Shown: positions 13,075 to 19,410 of the stretch, in pieces
How positions within the stretch are numbered: the stretch's first letter is position 1
How the letters are laid out: each line of letters opens with the position of its first letter
From: Bacteroidota bacterium
GTDB lineage: Bacteria > Bacteroidota > Bacteroidia > Chitinophagales > Chitinophagaceae
Assembly (NCBI GenBank): GCA_013288745.1
Contig: JABDBG010000026.1
Span: 1 to 32,174, forward strand
Length of the DNA stretch: 32,174 bases
Direction of reading: 5' to 3'
Notes under the pieces: generated by a model
What the model was told of the DNA's origin: nothing
Database searches by the model: none
The model's input: the letters and a program-made list of their open reading frames with translations, nothing else
Translations under genes and position numbers: made by a program

Positions 13075-14601
13075 CTATTCCGCTAGTTTCTCCGGCCTCA
13101 TTTGAGGGAAAAGCAATACATCTTGTATAGAATGCTGATTGGTCATCAGCATCGTTAAACGATCAATTCCAAAACCAATACCACTTGTTGGTGGCATACC
13201 ATATTCAAGCGCTCTTAAAAAATCGTAATCAATGAACATTGCTTCATCATCTCCACGTTCCATTAATTTAACCTGTTCTTCAAAACGCTCTCTCTGATCT
13301 ATTGGATCATTTAACTCTGTATAGGCATTGGCAATTTCTTTACCGTTAATGATCAATTCAAAACGCTCTACCAATCCGGGTTTACTGCGATGCTTTTTTG
13401 TAAGCGGACTCATTTCTACCGGATAATCTGTGATGAAGGTTGGCTGAACATAATTCGCTTCGCATTTAGCGCCGAATATTTCATCGATCAGTTTTCCTTT
13501 GCCAAATTTTTCATCTGCGTGTATGCCCAATTTCTTGCAAGCATCTCTTAAAGCTGCTTCATCCATTTCAGAAATATCAATACCTGTGTGTTCTTTAATA
13601 GCATCATACATCGTGATCCTTTTGTAAGGGGCCTTAAATTCAATTTCCTTATCTCCTGCCAATACTTTTGTCACGCCATTTGTTGCGATCGCAACTTTCT
13701 CTAATAATTGCTCGGTTGTATCCATCATCCATTCGTAATCCTTGTACGCGGTATAAAATTCCAATACGGTAAATTCAGGATTGTGTGTTCTGTCCATTCC
13801 TTCATTTCTAAAATTGCGACTGAATTCATACACCCATTCAAATCCACCTACGATCAATCTTTTTAAATATAGTTCGTTGGCTATGCGTAAATAGAAAGGA
13901 ACGTCTAATGCATTGTGGTGTGTTGCAAACGGTCTTGCTGCTGCACCTCCGGGAATGCTTTGTAATACAGGAGTATCAACTTCTAATGCACCGCGTTCAT
14001 TTAGAAAGTCGCGTATTGCAGTTACCAGCTTTGTACGTTTGATAAAAACTTCTTTTACCCCAGGGTTCACTATAAGATCGGCATAACGTTGACGGTAACG
14101 AAACTCAGGATCCGTTACTTCATCAAAAGCTTCACCGTCTTTTTCTTTAACGATAGGTAAGGGGCGCAATGATTTTGTAAGAATGGTAAATTCTTTTACG
14201 TGGATAGAGGTCTCACCGGTTTTTGTAGTGAATACATAACCCTTTACACCAATGATATCTCCGATATCAACTAATTTTTTCCAAACGGTTTGGTATAAGG
14301 TCTTATCCTCACCAGGACAAATATCATCTTGCTTAATATAAAATTGAATTTTGCCCACTGCATCTTGTAACACAAAAAAGTTTGCTTTACCCATATCGCG
14401 CACGCTCATGATACGGCCCGCGATGCATACATCAGCAAACTGATCTTTATTTTCTTCGCCCTTGTAATGTTCTTTTATATATGCAGAAGTAGTATTAACA
14501 GGGTATAGCGGTGCAGGATAAGCATCGATACCTAATTTTTTTAATTCTTCTAATTTTTCCCTGCGGATAATTTCCTGTTCTGATAGATGTAAAGTACTCA
14601 T
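13075..14601 (-). CDS. lysS: Lysyl-tRNA synthetase (class II)
   Basis: A full-length 508-residue class II LysRS that charges tRNA-Lys. An N-terminal OB-fold anticodon-binding domain ([20 protein letters not shown]) is followed by the catalytic core with motif 2 [15 protein letters not shown] and motif 3 [12 protein letters not shown]. There is no C-terminal extension of the kind seen in some Bacteroidota LysRS proteins. The start ATG precedes the usual [15 protein letters not shown] segment. A TATCTTTG -7 box lies 22 nt upstream of the start codon on the minus strand. Confidence 0.97.
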
Positions 14602-14803: not shown

Positions 14804-15478
14804 ATGAAATTTGAAAAAATTCATAATAAAGGTCAGGCGCAGCTATTTAAGAACCAGTACGTTGAGCATCTCACAAAAACTCATCCCCTGGTAATATTTT
14901 CTATTTATCTGCCCGTTGTTTCTTACATGTTGTATTATAGTAGTTCACATTTAAGCTTATCTGTAGAACAGATCGGACTCACATTTTTATTGGGGATGTT
15001 CTTCTGGACATTTTTTGAATACATCCTGCATCGTTTTGTTTTTCACTTTTTTAGTGAAAGCGAAGAAGCAATGAAGATCATTTATATAATACATGGCAAT
15101 CATCACGAATATCCGCGAGACAGAGAACGTCTTTTTATGCCACCGGTGCCGAGTATTATTTTGGCGTGTGTGGTATTTATACTGATGTATTTTGCCGCAC
15201 AGTTATTTGCTGCCGGTGATTATGTTTTTGCTTTTTTCCCGGGTTTCATTGTCGGCTATTTAATGTATGGCAGCATGCACTATGCTATTCATGCCTGGAA
15301 CCCTCCATATGCCTGGATGAAACCATTATGGCGCAACCATCATTTACATCATTATAAAAATGAAGAACGCGGATTTGGTGTAAGTACAACTTTATGGGAC
15401 AGGCTATTTGGCACCATGTTCGATCTTACAAAAGAAAAAGAAGACAAAGAAAAAGTGCAGGAACTAATGTTTAAATAA
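14804..15478 (+). CDS. Fatty-acid hydroxylase (sterol desaturase superfamily, FA2H-like)
   Basis: A 224-residue integral membrane di-iron enzyme. The histidine clusters HRFVFH, HGNHHEYPRD, HYAIH and HHLHH lie between four hydrophobic segments, as in the superfamily. The HGxHHEYPRDxxRLxMPP signature is the one seen in fatty-acid 2-hydroxylases (Scs7/FA2H), so 2-hydroxylation of a sphingolipid or other membrane acyl chain is a reasonable inference, given that many Bacteroidota make sphingolipids. The cytochrome b5 domain of the eukaryotic enzymes is absent. It ends 2 nt from the convergent lamin-tail gene with no clear terminator between them. Confidence 0.9.
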   Translation: MKFEKIHNKGQAQLFKNQYVEHLTKTHPLVIFSIYLPVVSYMLYYSSSHLSLSVEQIGLTFLLGMFFWTFFEYILHRFVFHFFSESEEAMKIIYIIHGNHHEYPRDRERLFMPPVPSIILACVVFILMYFAAQLFAAGDYVFAFFPGFIVGYLMYGSMHYAIHAWNPPYAWMKPLWRNHHLHHYKNEERGFGVSTTLWDRLFGTMFDLTKEKEDKEKVQELMFK

Positions 15479-15480
15479 TT

Positions 15481-18099
15481 TTAGTGGTTATTACTAGCTA
15501 ACACGACCGTATTTTTAAAGTCTTTAGTTTTACCACTGAGGTCAAATATTTTTGTGTACACGATATAAGTACCTTCTATTAATTGCCTGTTTTTTTCACC
15601 CAGGCCATCCCAGATAAATTTACCATCTATACCACACAATGCATTTTGTTGTAAGGTTCTTACCATCTTTCCCGCTGCATCAAATATTACGATATTGGCT
15701 ACGTAACCTGTTTCAGGAAAGCTATATTCAATGGTCACGAAATCATCAATGCCATCGTTGTTTGGAGAAAATATTTCCGGATAAACTGTTATTTGTCCTG
15801 CAGCATATTGATCGATTCTGTATTGAGAGTTTTTATAAGTTGGCGTACCATAACCAATATTTGTAGCAGCGGAATGCCAGTTATCTTCTGACTGGGTTGG
15901 CGCATCATAATTAATTCTCTCCAATGAAACACCTTGTGTATTATCGAGTAATTGAAATTGCCAGCTATCATAGTATTGCAATTCATCTACAATATTTCCT
16001 TGTGTATTTAAAATAATAGCATCACCGTTTGCATCGTTGAATGGGGGCATGGTATTTATTTGTACAAATGCATCAGGGTTCTGTGCAACATATTGTGATT
16101 TTACAATTGAAGGGCTACTGGTAACTACAATATAATTTTGTGGAAACAATGAATAGTCATCACTTGTTAATTGTGCAATATTGCCAATCGTTCCGGAAGT
16201 ACTTCTATTAGCAATATATAATTGTTTTAGGTTAATGATCTTTTTACTACGATTATATAATTCTACATAATCAACACCATTGCCTTTTGGGTTATACAAT
16301 ATCTCATTAATAACAACATCAAAATTATTGGCCATAACACTTATCCCAACTCTTGCCGTATCACTAGTATTGATCACATTACCTGCACAATCAGTAATAT
16401 TTAATGCCGTAATAGTATAGGTTCTTTTGGCAGATAACGGTAGCGTTAGTTTTAAAGCGACCTTATCAAATAGAGGCCCAACGGCTATAGCGTTCAGCGG
16501 TGTACCTATGCCACCGCTGATAAAATAATTAGCTGCAACAGAAGCTTTGATGCTATCCAGCGGTTCATCAAAATACAAAGTAATATCTACACTGTCTTTG
16601 GCGAAGGCACGTAATAATCTCGGCGCATTCTGATCGGCATTTTTCGCATCAATAGAATTTATTTTTCCCGGCGTTCCTCCATTTACATTTGTACTTGCTT
16701 TCCAGTTAGAATAGCCATTGCATGGGTTTTTTGTATCGATCATTTCTAATGACCAGCCGCCTTGTTCCTTCAAGGCATTTTGATACCAGGCGGAAGAATA
16801 GTTAACGGCATGCATAATTTTTCCTGCCGGACTTTTCAATATCAACAGATCGCCGGTATTCAATAAAGAAGGGAAATTTGTTACAGAGATAGTAGGCCCA
16901 AACAATAGCATGGCATTTACGGCACTCCCGGTACATACAATAACAAAACTGTTGGGTTGTAAAATGAAATTAGGCATCGGTCCACTTTGTACGGTAGTGT
17001 CTCCAATGGTGAATCCTTGTAAATTAATTGCGTAAGCAGAAGTGTTTTTTAATTCGATCCATTCATTGTTGGGTAGTCCTACTACCGGTGTTGGGTCGGC
17101 CATAATTTCATCAATGATAATATCGTATTGTTGTGGCGTATATAAACTAAACAATGCCGTTGCTGTGCCAATGGCATTTCCTGCCAGGTCTTTCACATCA
17201 TTTACGGTTAGCGTGCAACTGATACCATTGGGAATTTTGTTAGCAAAAGTTAAATGTATCAATGCCGCATTCGCTGGATCCTGCGTAGCAGAAACCGGCC
17301 CGCCTAAATTGTTATCGGCTATATAATTTGTGAGTTGTTGACTGCTTACATTATCTACGGGCTCATTAAAAAGTACATCTAGCGTTGTACTTGAGATAGC
17401 TGTGACAGATAAAATAACAGGCGGCGTTATATCGGGCACATATGGTGTAACAATTATATCATCAAAGAAATGCCGTTTAAAAAAACTGGCTGTGCTTTGT
17501 TTAACCAGAATGCCAAAATAGGATGAAGTGCTATAAGTGTTATCCGTGACAGCGCCTTCAGTAAAATAGCTATTGCCCGTTCCCGTTAGGTCTCTGTATA
17601 AGGTCCATTGGTTTGCGGCATTTAAAACAACTTTTATTTTAACTACATTATTACTGGTATTCAAAATGCCATCAACGCCATCGATCAATTTAGTTATACT
17701 ACCTGTTGCATCTTTTCGATATAAACAAATATCATCGCTGGTATTACCTATGCGCACAAAATATCCTGTAGTAGTAGATTGTTTGATATTGCTTGATGAC
17801 GCAGTTAAATAAACATCTACATAATTGGCAGAGGAAGTATTAAAACCAAGTTTTGTGTAAAATTCCCATTGTGCAGTTGTGGCTAATGTGCTCGGAGTGC
17901 TTAAATAAAATGTATCGTTAGCTAATGTATCATTGCTTTGCAACTGATACGATGAATTAATGATCCAATTGCTGGTATCTCCGATCCATTTTGGAGCGCT
18001 TGTAAAATTGCTATCAGTAAAACTTTCGGTAAACTGAGCCTCTGAAACTGCAGAAAGGAGCAATAATAAGGGTAAAAAGCAAAGTAATTTTTTATTCAT
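15481..18099 (-). CDS. Secreted lamin-tail-domain protein with gliding/FlgD-like C-terminal domain
   Basis: An 872-residue exported protein. A signal peptide (about 1-21, ending SEAQF) precedes a concanavalin-like beta region. Bacterial Ig/SbsA-like repeats follow (DITPPVILSVTAISSTTLDV near 225 and a second near 490), alternating with two lamin-tail domains (IIDEIMADPTPVVG...WIELKN near 330 and VINEILYNPKGNGVDYVELYN near 595). A C-terminal FlgD/CHU_C-like domain (SPNNDGIDDF near 795, WDGLGEKNRQLIEGTY) completes it. Such C-terminal domains often act as type IX secretion sorting signals, so outer-surface display or release is inferred. Lamin-tail domains in bacteria are often linked to secreted nucleases or adhesins; no nuclease domain is visible here. 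It diverges from the asd leader. Confidence 0.85.
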   Translation of the reverse strand: MNKKLLCFLPLLLLLSAVSEAQFTESFTDSNFTSAPKWIGDTSNWIINSSYQLQSNDTLANDTFYLSTPSTLATTAQWEFYTKLGFNTSSANYVDVYLTASSSNIKQSTTTGYFVRIGNTSDDICLYRKDATGSITKLIDGVDGILNTSNNVVKIKVVLNAANQWTLYRDLTGTGNSYFTEGAVTDNTYSTSSYFGILVKQSTASFFKRHFFDDIIVTPYVPDITPPVILSVTAISSTTLDVLFNEPVDNVSSQQLTNYIADNNLGGPVSATQDPANAALIHLTFANKIPNGISCTLTVNDVKDLAGNAIGTATALFSLYTPQQYDIIIDEIMADPTPVVGLPNNEWIELKNTSAYAINLQGFTIGDTTVQSGPMPNFILQPNSFVIVCTGSAVNAMLLFGPTISVTNFPSLLNTGDLLILKSPAGKIMHAVNYSSAWYQNALKEQGGWSLEMIDTKNPCNGYSNWKASTNVNGGTPGKINSIDAKNADQNAPRLLRAFAKDSVDITLYFDEPLDSIKASVAANYFISGGIGTPLNAIAVGPLFDKVALKLTLPLSAKRTYTITALNITDCAGNVINTSDTARVGISVMANNFDVVINEILYNPKGNGVDYVELYNRSKKIINLKQLYIANRSTSGTIGNIAQLTSDDYSLFPQNYIVVTSSPSIVKSQYVAQNPDAFVQINTMPPFNDANGDAIILNTQGNIVDELQYYDSWQFQLLDNTQGVSLERINYDAPTQSEDNWHSAATNIGYGTPTYKNSQYRIDQYAAGQITVYPEIFSPNNDGIDDFVTIEYSFPETGYVANIVIFDAAGKMVRTLQQNALCGIDGKFIWDGLGEKNRQLIEGTYIVYTKIFDLSGKTKDFKNTVVLASNNH

Positions 18100-18187: not shown

Positions 18188-18219
18188 TTTGGGAGATATA
18201 TGATTTGTTGCTACTTTTG
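18188..18219 (+). promoter_or_regulatory. Promoter of the asd leader transcript
   Basis: TTTG at 18188-18191, a 20-nt spacer and TACTTTTG at 18212-18219 fit the Bacteroidota promoter consensus. Transcription is predicted to start near 18223, only one or two bases before the leader ATG, so the leader would be translated from an almost leaderless mRNA. A second in-frame ATG lies at 18230. Confidence 0.7.
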
Positions 18220-18223
18220 TGCC

Positions 18224-18286
18224 ATGTTTATGATTATCAAACAAATTAAGATTACCAAGAAGCATTCCGACAAGCGGGAGGGTTAA
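18224..18286 (+). CDS. Candidate leader peptide of asd
   Basis: A 20-codon ORF reading MFMIIKQIKITKKHSDKREG, with stop TAA at 18284-18286. It contains five Lys, four Ile, two Met and one Thr codon, all end products of the aspartate pathway that Asd feeds, concentrated in codons 1-13. It lies between a promoter and an intrinsic terminator upstream of asd, with its last two codons and stop inside one arm of a competing RNA structure. This is the arrangement of an attenuator leader peptide such as thrL. AT-rich DNA favours Lys and Ile codons anyway, so composition alone would not be proof. Confidence 0.65.
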   Translation: MFMIIKQIKITKKHSDKREG

Positions 18287-18348
18287 CGGTGTTTTGTTTG
18301 TTCTACAATATTCACAAGCCTTCCAGTAAAATGGGAGGCTTATTTTTT
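18265..18348 (+). promoter_or_regulatory. Transcription attenuator upstream of asd (three competing RNA pairings)
   Basis: Terminator: AAGCCTTCC (18316-18324) pairs with GGGAGGCTT (18333-18341), 9 bp with an 8-nt loop, followed by T6 (18343-18348). Antiterminator: GGGAGGGTT (18276-18284), which differs from the terminator's 3' arm by one base, can pair with the same 18316-18324 segment. Protector: TTCCG (18265-18269) can pair with CGGGA (18275-18279). The antiterminator arm overlaps the leader peptide's final codons and stop. A ribosome finishing the leader would hide it and allow termination; a ribosome stalled at the Ile/Lys/Thr codons would free it and allow asd transcription. No other plus-strand gene lies upstream that this terminator could serve. 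Confidence 0.72.
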
Positions 18349-18373
18349 AACACTCATATATAAAAACAAAAAA

Positions 18374-19363
18374 ATGAAAGTAGCTGTAGTAGGCGCTACC
18401 GGTTTGGTAGGTAGTAAAATGTTGCAGGTTTTAGCGGAAAGAAATTTTCCGGTAGATGAATTAATCCCTGTTGCCTCTGAAAGATCAATTGGTAAAGAAG
18501 TTGAATTTAAAGGAAAGAAGTATAAGATCGTTGGCTATGCTGATGCTATTGCTGCTAAACCGCATATTGCAATTTTTTCTGCCGGAGGCGGAACGTCATT
18601 AGAACTTGCTCCTAAGTTTGCCGAAGCTGGTATTACAGTAATTGACAATTCATCTGCATGGCGCATGGACCCTACTAAAAAATTAGTAGTGCCTGAAGTT
18701 AATGCCAATGTATTAACGAAAACAGATAAGATCATCGCAAACCCTAATTGTTCTACGATTCAATTAGTAGTGGTATTAAAACCATTGCATGAAAAATATA
18801 AAATTAAAAGAGTAGTGGTATCAACTTACCAAAGTGTTACCGGTACGGGTGTTAAGGCGGTCGATCAGTTAATGAACGAAAGAAAAGGGATACAGGGAGA
18901 AATGGCATATAAATATCCTATCGATCTGAATGCAATACCGCAGATAGATGTATTCCTTGATAATGGTTACACTAAAGAGGAAATGAAAATGACCAATGAA
19001 ACAAAGAAGATCATAGGTGATGATTCTATCAAGCTAACAGCTACTACTGTACGTATACCGGTAATAGGCGGGCACAGCGAAAGCGTGAACATTGAATTCG
19101 AAAAAGATTTTGATCTGAAAGAATTAAGGGATCTTTTGAGCAAGGCGCCTGGTGTTGTTGTTGAAGATGATATTGCGAACAACATTTACCCAATGCCATT
19201 AACAGCGCACGAAAAAGATGAAACTTTTGTAGGAAGGATCAGAAGAGATGAAACACAAGCTAACACGCTAAACTGTTGGATAGTTAGTGATAATCTGCGT
19301 AAAGGCGCAGCTACAAATGCTGTACAGATCGCTGAATATCTATTAGCGAACAAATTGGTATAA
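18374..19363 (+). CDS. asd: Aspartate-semialdehyde dehydrogenase
   Basis: A complete 329-residue enzyme that reduces aspartyl phosphate to aspartate semialdehyde with NADPH, the branch point to lysine/diaminopimelate, methionine, threonine and isoleucine. The N-terminal nucleotide motif is GATGLVGSKM (7-16). The catalytic Cys is C126 in NPNCSTIQ, and the substrate Arg/His region is VRIPVIGGHSE. It starts 25 nt after an intrinsic terminator preceded by a leader ORF, so attenuation control is proposed. A strong terminator follows and no pathway partner is adjacent. Confidence 0.96.
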   Translation: MKVAVVGATGLVGSKMLQVLAERNFPVDELIPVASERSIGKEVEFKGKKYKIVGYADAIAAKPHIAIFSAGGGTSLELAPKFAEAGITVIDNSSAWRMDPTKKLVVPEVNANVLTKTDKIIANPNCSTIQLVVVLKPLHEKYKIKRVVVSTYQSVTGTGVKAVDQLMNERKGIQGEMAYKYPIDLNAIPQIDVFLDNGYTKEEMKMTNETKKIIGDDSIKLTATTVRIPVIGGHSESVNIEFEKDFDLKELRDLLSKAPGVVVEDDIANNIYPMPLTAHEKDETFVGRIRRDETQANTLNCWIVSDNLRKGAATNAVQIAEYLLANKLV

Positions 19364-19380
19364 CATATCCTAATTTAGGT

Positions 19381-19410
19381 AAAAGGCTCCGGTAACTCCG
19401 GAGCTTTTTT
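19381..19410 (+). terminator. Intrinsic terminator of asd
   Basis: GCTCCGG (19386-19392) pairs with CCGGAGC (19398-19404) around a 5-nt loop and is followed by T6 to 19410, with A's on the 5' side. Confidence 0.88.

Follow-up and report, generated by a model that had tools for sequence, protein, structure and literature searches.

Why should an intrinsic terminator lie between a promoter and the biosynthetic gene that it faces? The question is raised by asd, the aspartate-semialdehyde dehydrogenase gene of a member of the Chitinophagaceae, in a 32,174-nucleotide stretch of DNA that we analysed at its full length and call the window. A sequence-only reading of this locus had proposed ribosome-mediated attenuation, with a leader peptide of Lys, Ile, Met and Thr codons controlling asd through a three-way RNA switch. 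We find that the observation is real and that this interpretation is largely right. In our judgement the element is, with a probability of roughly 0.8, an attenuator of transcription that works through the translating ribosome and responds mainly to how much charged lysyl-tRNA is available.

Anatomy of the asd leader

The features of the locus, in window coordinates, are as follows.

18188..18219, + strand: Bacteroidota-type promoter, TTTG at 18188-18191 and TACTTTTG at 18212-18219, spacing 20 nt
18224..18286, + strand: leader ORF of 20 codons, reading MFMIIKQIKITKKHSDKREG, with an in-frame second ATG at 18230
18240..18256, + strand: 5' arm of the protector helix, within the leader codons (folds; covariation)
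18257..18262, + strand: Lys-Lys pair (codons 6 and 7 in the numbering of the family alignment), likely control codons
18265..18279, + strand: inner protector hairpin, TTCCG/CGGGA (predicted folds)
18277..18284, + strand: antiterminator arm, partner of the terminator 5' arm at 18317-18324 (8-pair duplex, -12.6 kcal/mol)
18288..18302, + strand: 3' arm of the protector helix (folds; covariation)
18316..18348, + strand: intrinsic terminator, stem 18316-18341 and T tract to 18348 (terminator scan; covariation)
18374..19363, + strand: asd, aspartate-semialdehyde dehydrogenase, 329 aa (NCBIfam NF011456 and TIGR01296; Pfam)
19381..19409, + strand: terminator of asd itself, 3' of the gene

Promoter, 20-codon ORF and terminator were all present where they had been described, the terminator ending 25 nt 5' of the asd ATG, and the identity of asd was borne out by both NCBIfam models. 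The leader that is conserved in the family spans 18223-18349. Both promoter boxes were checked in the sequence; a sigma-70 promoter scan of the window, which does not cover the Bacteroidota promoter type, yielded no excess over shuffles. A promoter of the same kind (a TAnnTT[TC]G -7 box with TTTG or TTTT 18-22 nt upstream, as the -33 box) precedes 87 of 99 family leaders, with a box spacing of 20 nt in 78 of those 87. The -7 box alone occurs in 88 of the 99 leaders and in 3.4% of the shuffled control, in which both boxes together reached 0.4%.

The distance from the -7 box to the leader ATG ranges from 4 to 10 nt across the family. Because the first ATG in the window lies only 4 nt past the box, the leader mRNA is probably leaderless or nearly so, if transcription starts at the usual distance from such promoters. 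Leaderless mRNAs are a minority in Bacteroidota: 5.5% in Flavobacterium psychrophilum (PMC9723704), and in Bacteroides thetaiotaomicron about 3.7% of 5' UTRs are shorter than 10 nt (PMC7366714).

Among ORFs of at least 100 aa, none upstream on the plus strand would account for the terminator, as had been argued. The nearest of them ends at 15478, and the interval from there to the asd leader holds an ORF at 15481-18099 on the minus strand. This divergent ORF encodes a protein of 872 residues in which lamin-tail, Ig-like and type IX secretion signal domains were recognised. A gene for lysine--tRNA ligase (NCBIfam TIGR00499) is found at 13075-14601 on the minus strand, about 3.8 kb from asd; its upstream region in the window was inspected for a leader and none was seen.

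The segment GGGAGGGTT (18276-18284), at the end of the leader ORF, differs at one base in nine from the 3' arm of the terminator, GGGAGGCTT (18333-18341), and the pairing of this leader arm with the same terminator 5' arm is reproduced in the window. The predicted fold contains a 15-pair helix between 18240-18256 and 18288-18302, which encloses the TTCCG/CGGGA hairpin. This hairpin (18265-18269 with 18275-18279) had been named as the protector; its pairing does appear in the predicted folds, but it is only the tip of a structure whose main part is the 15-pair helix. The evidence from the window sequence alone is modest: 67 of 5000 dinucleotide shuffles matched the leader-terminator pairing of -12.6 kcal/mol, and the leader fold gave z = -1.0 without the terminator (31 of 200 shuffles equally good) and z = -3.4 with it. 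The doubt left by these window-only statistics was lifted by comparison with relatives.

Conservation and covariation among relatives

We took 110 asd loci, consisting of (i) the best 80 of 588 confirmed named candidates and (ii) 30 from 59 related genomes, and read 230-260 upstream bases per locus, a distance beyond which elements could escape; three loci had shorter upstream sequence (fewer than 90 bases in L007 and L033, 120 in L090). The same anatomy was picked out by eye in 36 of the 110, and leaving out L016, from the same contig as L097, gave 35 seed leaders (alignment A1). Carriers among the seeds include Chitinophagaceae bacterium DXS, Niastella yeongjuensis, Sediminibacterium roseum and Limnovirga soli, and about half of the same-genus asd loci that were read are without the element. 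Five of 14 such loci tested (L093, L096, L098, L101 and L102) share CTTAA[AG]TGTTTACAA at 102-154 nt upstream of asd, perhaps another control site.

A covariance model, R1, was built from the 35 seeds; the window, itself among the training sequences, scores 100 bits (E = 5.9e-14). Within the family, 232 of 394 genomes have a match at E<=1e-4 (counted from the match table) and the other 162 have none at that threshold; at E<=0.01 the count is 271 of 394 genomes, in 83 of 101 genera. We use the figure of 232 because plain terminators of the window's own genome reach E = 1.9e-4, placing the noise near 1e-4. These own-genome matches (L141-L145, E 1.9e-4 to 0.07), considered as further targets, were rejected: four stand before other genes and one has no ORF, none precedes asd or dapA, and they look like plain terminators. 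In a sample of the order, 71 of 298 genomes matched, 10 of them outside the family with best E values of 7.9e-5 to 8.9e-4. In a sample of the class, 15 of 345 genomes matched at E<=1e-4; five belong to the family, and the other 10 are spread over four families that lie outside the order. One of these 10 (G879) is the contig of seed L022, and two of the leaders are identical. With a broader second model, R2, 18 of 395 genomes in a phylum sample matched, 11 in the family and seven outside; none of the seven precedes asd (five are before other genes, one is without an ORF, and in one a Thr/Ile leader is followed by an amino-acid kinase gene).

The genes downstream were assigned by BLASTP comparison with the window's Asd and with DapA of genome G271, the latter confirmed by NCBIfam TIGR00674. 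All 30 of the matches L111-L140, which include the window, precede asd; the next 18 comprise 15 before asd and three before dapA, a further batch of 20 divides into 10 and 10, another batch has asd downstream in 10 of 10, and so do the class-sample matches outside the order (10 of 10), some loci recurring between batches. Every R1 match at E<=1e-4 whose downstream gene was checked stands before asd or dapA. Four genera share the 13 occurrences before dapA (6, 5, 1 and 1). What had been presented as a single case acting on a lone asd is instead a family, found before dapA in four genera and before asd in four families outside the order.

A second alignment, A2, holds 99 distinct leaders, 87 from asd and 12 from dapA, after one identical row was removed from 100. 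Nine followed loci lie outside it (L154, L157, L159, L197 and L208-L212, with L208 the 13th dapA leader), and L156 and L167 were left out of use. Comparison with relatives for promoter, leader ORF, codons and compensatory changes, the check that had been proposed, came out in favour of the attenuator. In A1, changes on both sides occur at seven of nine counted pairs of the protector and seven of 10 pairs of the terminator, and 0 of 500 shuffles reached the observed value in either case; the protector was counted on the 15-pair helix only, with the inner TTCCG/CGGGA hairpin outside the count. A2, fitted to the model and hence biased towards it, gives seven of nine and eight of 10.

Pairing partners also fit each other within sequences. 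Protector arms pair at -10.4 kcal/mol within sequences vs -7.3 between them, and antiterminator arm with terminator arm at -14.5 vs -12.6 kcal/mol (0 of 10,000 permutations for each), with the reservation that the shuffle and permutation controls correct only partly for relatedness. For the window's protector arms their own partner beats all 34 foreign partners; for its antiterminator arm, 21 of 34 foreign terminator arms pair better than its own. The leader copy has changed in step with both arms of the terminator in one relative (L014). RNAalifold on the raw MAFFT alignment recovered the terminator only and no protector, which we identified by folding sequences singly and by inspecting those of relatives. 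A terminator stem with compensatory changes is thus conserved between leader and gene, and the two mutually exclusive pairings, protector and antiterminator, are both fitted to their own sequences. Folds, covariation and this co-fit support the proposed three-way switch of protector, antiterminator and terminator.

Leader codons, ribosome position and the likely regulatory signal

All 99 leaders in A2 have an in-frame ATG and stop and encode 14 to 22 residues. Single-base codon differences are synonymous in 64% of cases in the leader frame vs 8% and 14% in the other frames (sequence pairs, relatedness uncorrected), and judged by this pattern the short ORF is under coding selection. Lys occupies codons 0, 3, 6 and 7 in 78, 71, 78 and 75 of the 87 asd leaders, and in 11, 11, 12 and nine of the 12 dapA leaders, which were drawn from few genera and are not twelve independent events; the other three dapA leaders have Thr at codon 7. 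At codon 5, 49 of the asd leaders have Thr and 20 have Ile, and the dapA leaders divide into nine with Val and three with Ser. The ten asd leaders from outside the order (nine distinct) contain 54 Lys and three Thr among 187 residues. Thr and Met make up 13% and 10% of asd leader residues in A2, the start Met being counted, and the aligned leaders have no conserved Met codon beyond the start.

Asd supplies all four end products, lysine, threonine, isoleucine and methionine, and DapA catalyses the first step devoted solely to lysine and diaminopimelate. Because Lys persists in the dapA leaders and, both within the order and beyond it, in those of asd, we take lysine to be the main signal, a view that gains support from the occurrence of the element upstream of dapA, a gene confined to the lysine and diaminopimelate branch. 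Most likely, to judge by codon content, the signal is lysine, with Thr and Ile secondary and Met without support. The sequence-only reading, which listed Lys, Ile, Met and Thr codons together, thus stands for Lys in all leader sets and for Thr and Ile mainly in the asd leaders of the window's family, but not for Met, which has no specific support.

The position of the leader ribosome was modelled with usual footprint sizes, counted from the first base of the codon in the A site and reaching 18 nt upstream and 12 nt downstream of it. When the A site holds codon 7, the last conserved Lys, the footprint leaves the antiterminator arm uncovered in 90 of the 99 leaders; for codon 6 the number is 98. 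A ribosome whose A site holds the stop codon covers the whole arm in 93 of 99, although leaders differ in whether the stop codon precedes the arm, lies within it or follows it. Stalling at the Lys codons would therefore leave the arm free, and a ribosome at the stop codon would cover it. The modelled capture of the terminator 5' arm by an upstream partner, before its own partner has been transcribed, is in the window 0.998 with a stalled ribosome, 0.003 with a ribosome at the stop and 0.20 with none; the means over 99 leaders are 0.97 (stalled at codon 7), 0.12 and 0.67, and the no-ribosome capture exceeds the stalled value in 11 of the 99. The two ribosome-state values follow almost directly from the masked bases and act as a consistency check. 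Since capture without a ribosome averages 0.67, the model predicts that many relatives would read through if untranslated, which speaks against tight control without translation in those relatives.

We propose that transcription starts near the leader ATG. With lysine plentiful, the translating ribosome would reach the stop codon and cover the antiterminator arm (18277-18284); once it has gone, leader codons 18240-18256 would pair with 18288-18302 and shut the arm away. In either situation the terminator (18316-18341) would form and asd would be off. With lysine short, the ribosome would stall on the Lys-Lys codons at 18257-18262 and cover the 5' side of the protector, and the freed arm would pair with the terminator 5' arm, blocking termination and allowing asd to be transcribed. 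The Thr and Ile codons in the asd leaders of the window's family probably add sensitivity to the other branches.

Other explanations share parts of this evidence. An attenuator of the same type might sense lysine, threonine, isoleucine and methionine jointly, with no dominant signal, as the sequence-only reading held. Asd feeds all four end products, 69 of 87 asd leaders have Thr or Ile at codon 5, and the Thr and Met contents given above point the same way; yet codon 5 is Thr or Ile in none of the 12 dapA leaders, Thr is nearly missing from the asd leaders outside the order while Lys is retained there, and Met is not conserved after the start, all of which make joint sensing unlikely. That the codons are no sensor at all, and that a conserved K-H-T-K peptide arrests, together with a ligand, the ribosome that makes it or else has a function in trans, would fit the conserved His and Thr at codons 1 and 2 (74 and 75 of 87 asd leaders). 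These two codons nevertheless appear to be kept as bases, like a helix arm (CAT in 70 of the 74 His, ACA in 69 of the 75 Thr), for which the protector helix accounts, but the Thr codons at position 5 end in any of the four bases and seem kept for their amino acid; the C-terminal half and the length of the peptide vary across relatives, and we hold such a functional or arrest peptide to be improbable.

A riboswitch, or a site bound by a regulatory protein, in which the ORF is incidental is more improbable again. The leader is structured and has alternative pairings, as such a site would, but synonymous change is specific to the leader frame and alignment A1, inspected by eye, has no conserved aptamer-like loop outside the coding part. 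Scans with all 4227 Rfam families gave nothing relevant to a riboswitch or known RNA family, neither the window nor any of 20 loci matching at the gathering threshold; a relaxed scan returned seven weak matches to unrelated families, the lysine riboswitch not among them. Least credible is simple insulation, in which the terminator only shields asd from transcription that arrives from upstream and the near-copy in the leader arose by chance. The shuffles that pair equally well in the window alone, and the existence of such terminators elsewhere in the genome, would allow for it, but 2.7 kb upstream lack a plus-strand ORF of at least 100 aa, the family promoter sits upstream of the terminator, and relatives preserve both the leader and its pairings. 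The arrangement of genes and the place of the promoter disfavour insulation.

Related leaders and known attenuators

The proposed attenuator, with lysine as its main signal, can be set beside leaders elsewhere in the aspartate pathway. We collected thrA upstream regions from 20 of 25 genomes with a PF00742 (homoserine dehydrogenase) match (L241-L260). In 20 of 20, a different short ORF ending in Thr/Ile runs precedes the aspartokinase-homoserine dehydrogenase gene, the ORF being chosen by a script that prefers Thr and Ile; in the genome of the window (L259, G000:C21:33000-34200) it ends ATTIITIIATR. This ORF is closed by an AACCC/GGGTT-type hairpin in the 20 genomes examined, and a terminator scan of the 200 nt before thrA found one site in the 20 genomes, the hairpin itself. 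The thrA leader may work by another route, for example Rho or translation. In G678 (L284), outside the order, a Thr/Ile leader, MYNSTIIITIIITTGRNLAEE, and an intrinsic terminator stand before an amino-acid kinase gene that is probably thrA. From the thrA and G678 Thr/Ile leaders vs the asd and dapA Lys leaders, it follows that codon content tracks the pathway branch. On balance we incline to the view that the aspartate pathway of Bacteroidia carries a set of leader-peptide switches with codons chosen by branch (Thr/Ile for thrA, Lys with Thr/Ile for asd, Lys for dapA), lysine being sensed by a ribosome on a near-leaderless ORF.

Attenuators with leader peptides are familiar from the thr, his, trp, ilv, leu and phe leaders of Proteobacteria. 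The present element resembles them in its short ORF of end-product codons, protector, antiterminator and intrinsic terminator before the gene; unlike them, it would respond mainly to lysine and act on asd and dapA in a Bacteroidota host, and its Lys codons themselves form a protector arm on a probably near-leaderless ORF. Attenuators of trp and ilv are described for Actinobacteria in PMC1262725. In Bacteroidota, leader-peptide or amino-acid operon control is likewise suspected for the Bacteroid-trp motif (RF01692; PMC2864571) and for unnamed leader-peptide candidates of F. psychrophilum (PMC9723704) and B. thetaiotaomicron (PMC7366714); the main text of PMC9723704 does not mention asd, lysine or dap. 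An RNA element before asd is also known from the asd motif of Lactobacillales (RF01732; PMC2864571) and from an attenuator-like sequence in Streptococcus mutans (a title cited in PMC2864571), both of another phylum. Covariance models of Bacteroid-trp, the asd motif and the T-box had no match in the window or in the 20 loci. The L-box binds lysine directly, and it too has no Rfam match at the present leader; PMC1262725 names this riboswitch as RNA-level control of lysine genes elsewhere. SEP5 of Sinorhizobium meliloti, a translated short ORF with six Thr and three Lys codons, is a proposed leader peptide and precedes a gene that is there called aspartate dehydrogenase; it differs, by the available account, in its phylum, in being conserved only in Sinorhizobium and in having no switch structure given (PMC10117765). 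Bacteroidetes, asd, dapA and lysine are all absent from the main text of a survey of premature terminators (PMC2965389). The literature searched, outside which most subscription journals fall, yielded (i) no asd, dapA or lysine leader-peptide attenuator for Bacteroidota and (ii) no leader-peptide attenuator with lysine as an established signal. The mechanism is known; the family, its target genes and the lysine signal appear to be new.

If our reading is true, lysyl-tRNA would be a new signal for classical attenuation, lysine being sensed elsewhere by the L-box. Leader-peptide attenuation is textbook material, yet for Bacteroidota it was only hinted at in the literature searched. With about 100 aligned examples the logic of the switch can be read from sequence, including one stretch of bases that doubles as lysine codons and as the arm of an RNA helix, and the cultured carriers N. 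yeongjuensis, S. roseum and L. soli make the switch testable. The family suggests that the supply of lysine and of cell-wall precursors in this group is under RNA-level control.
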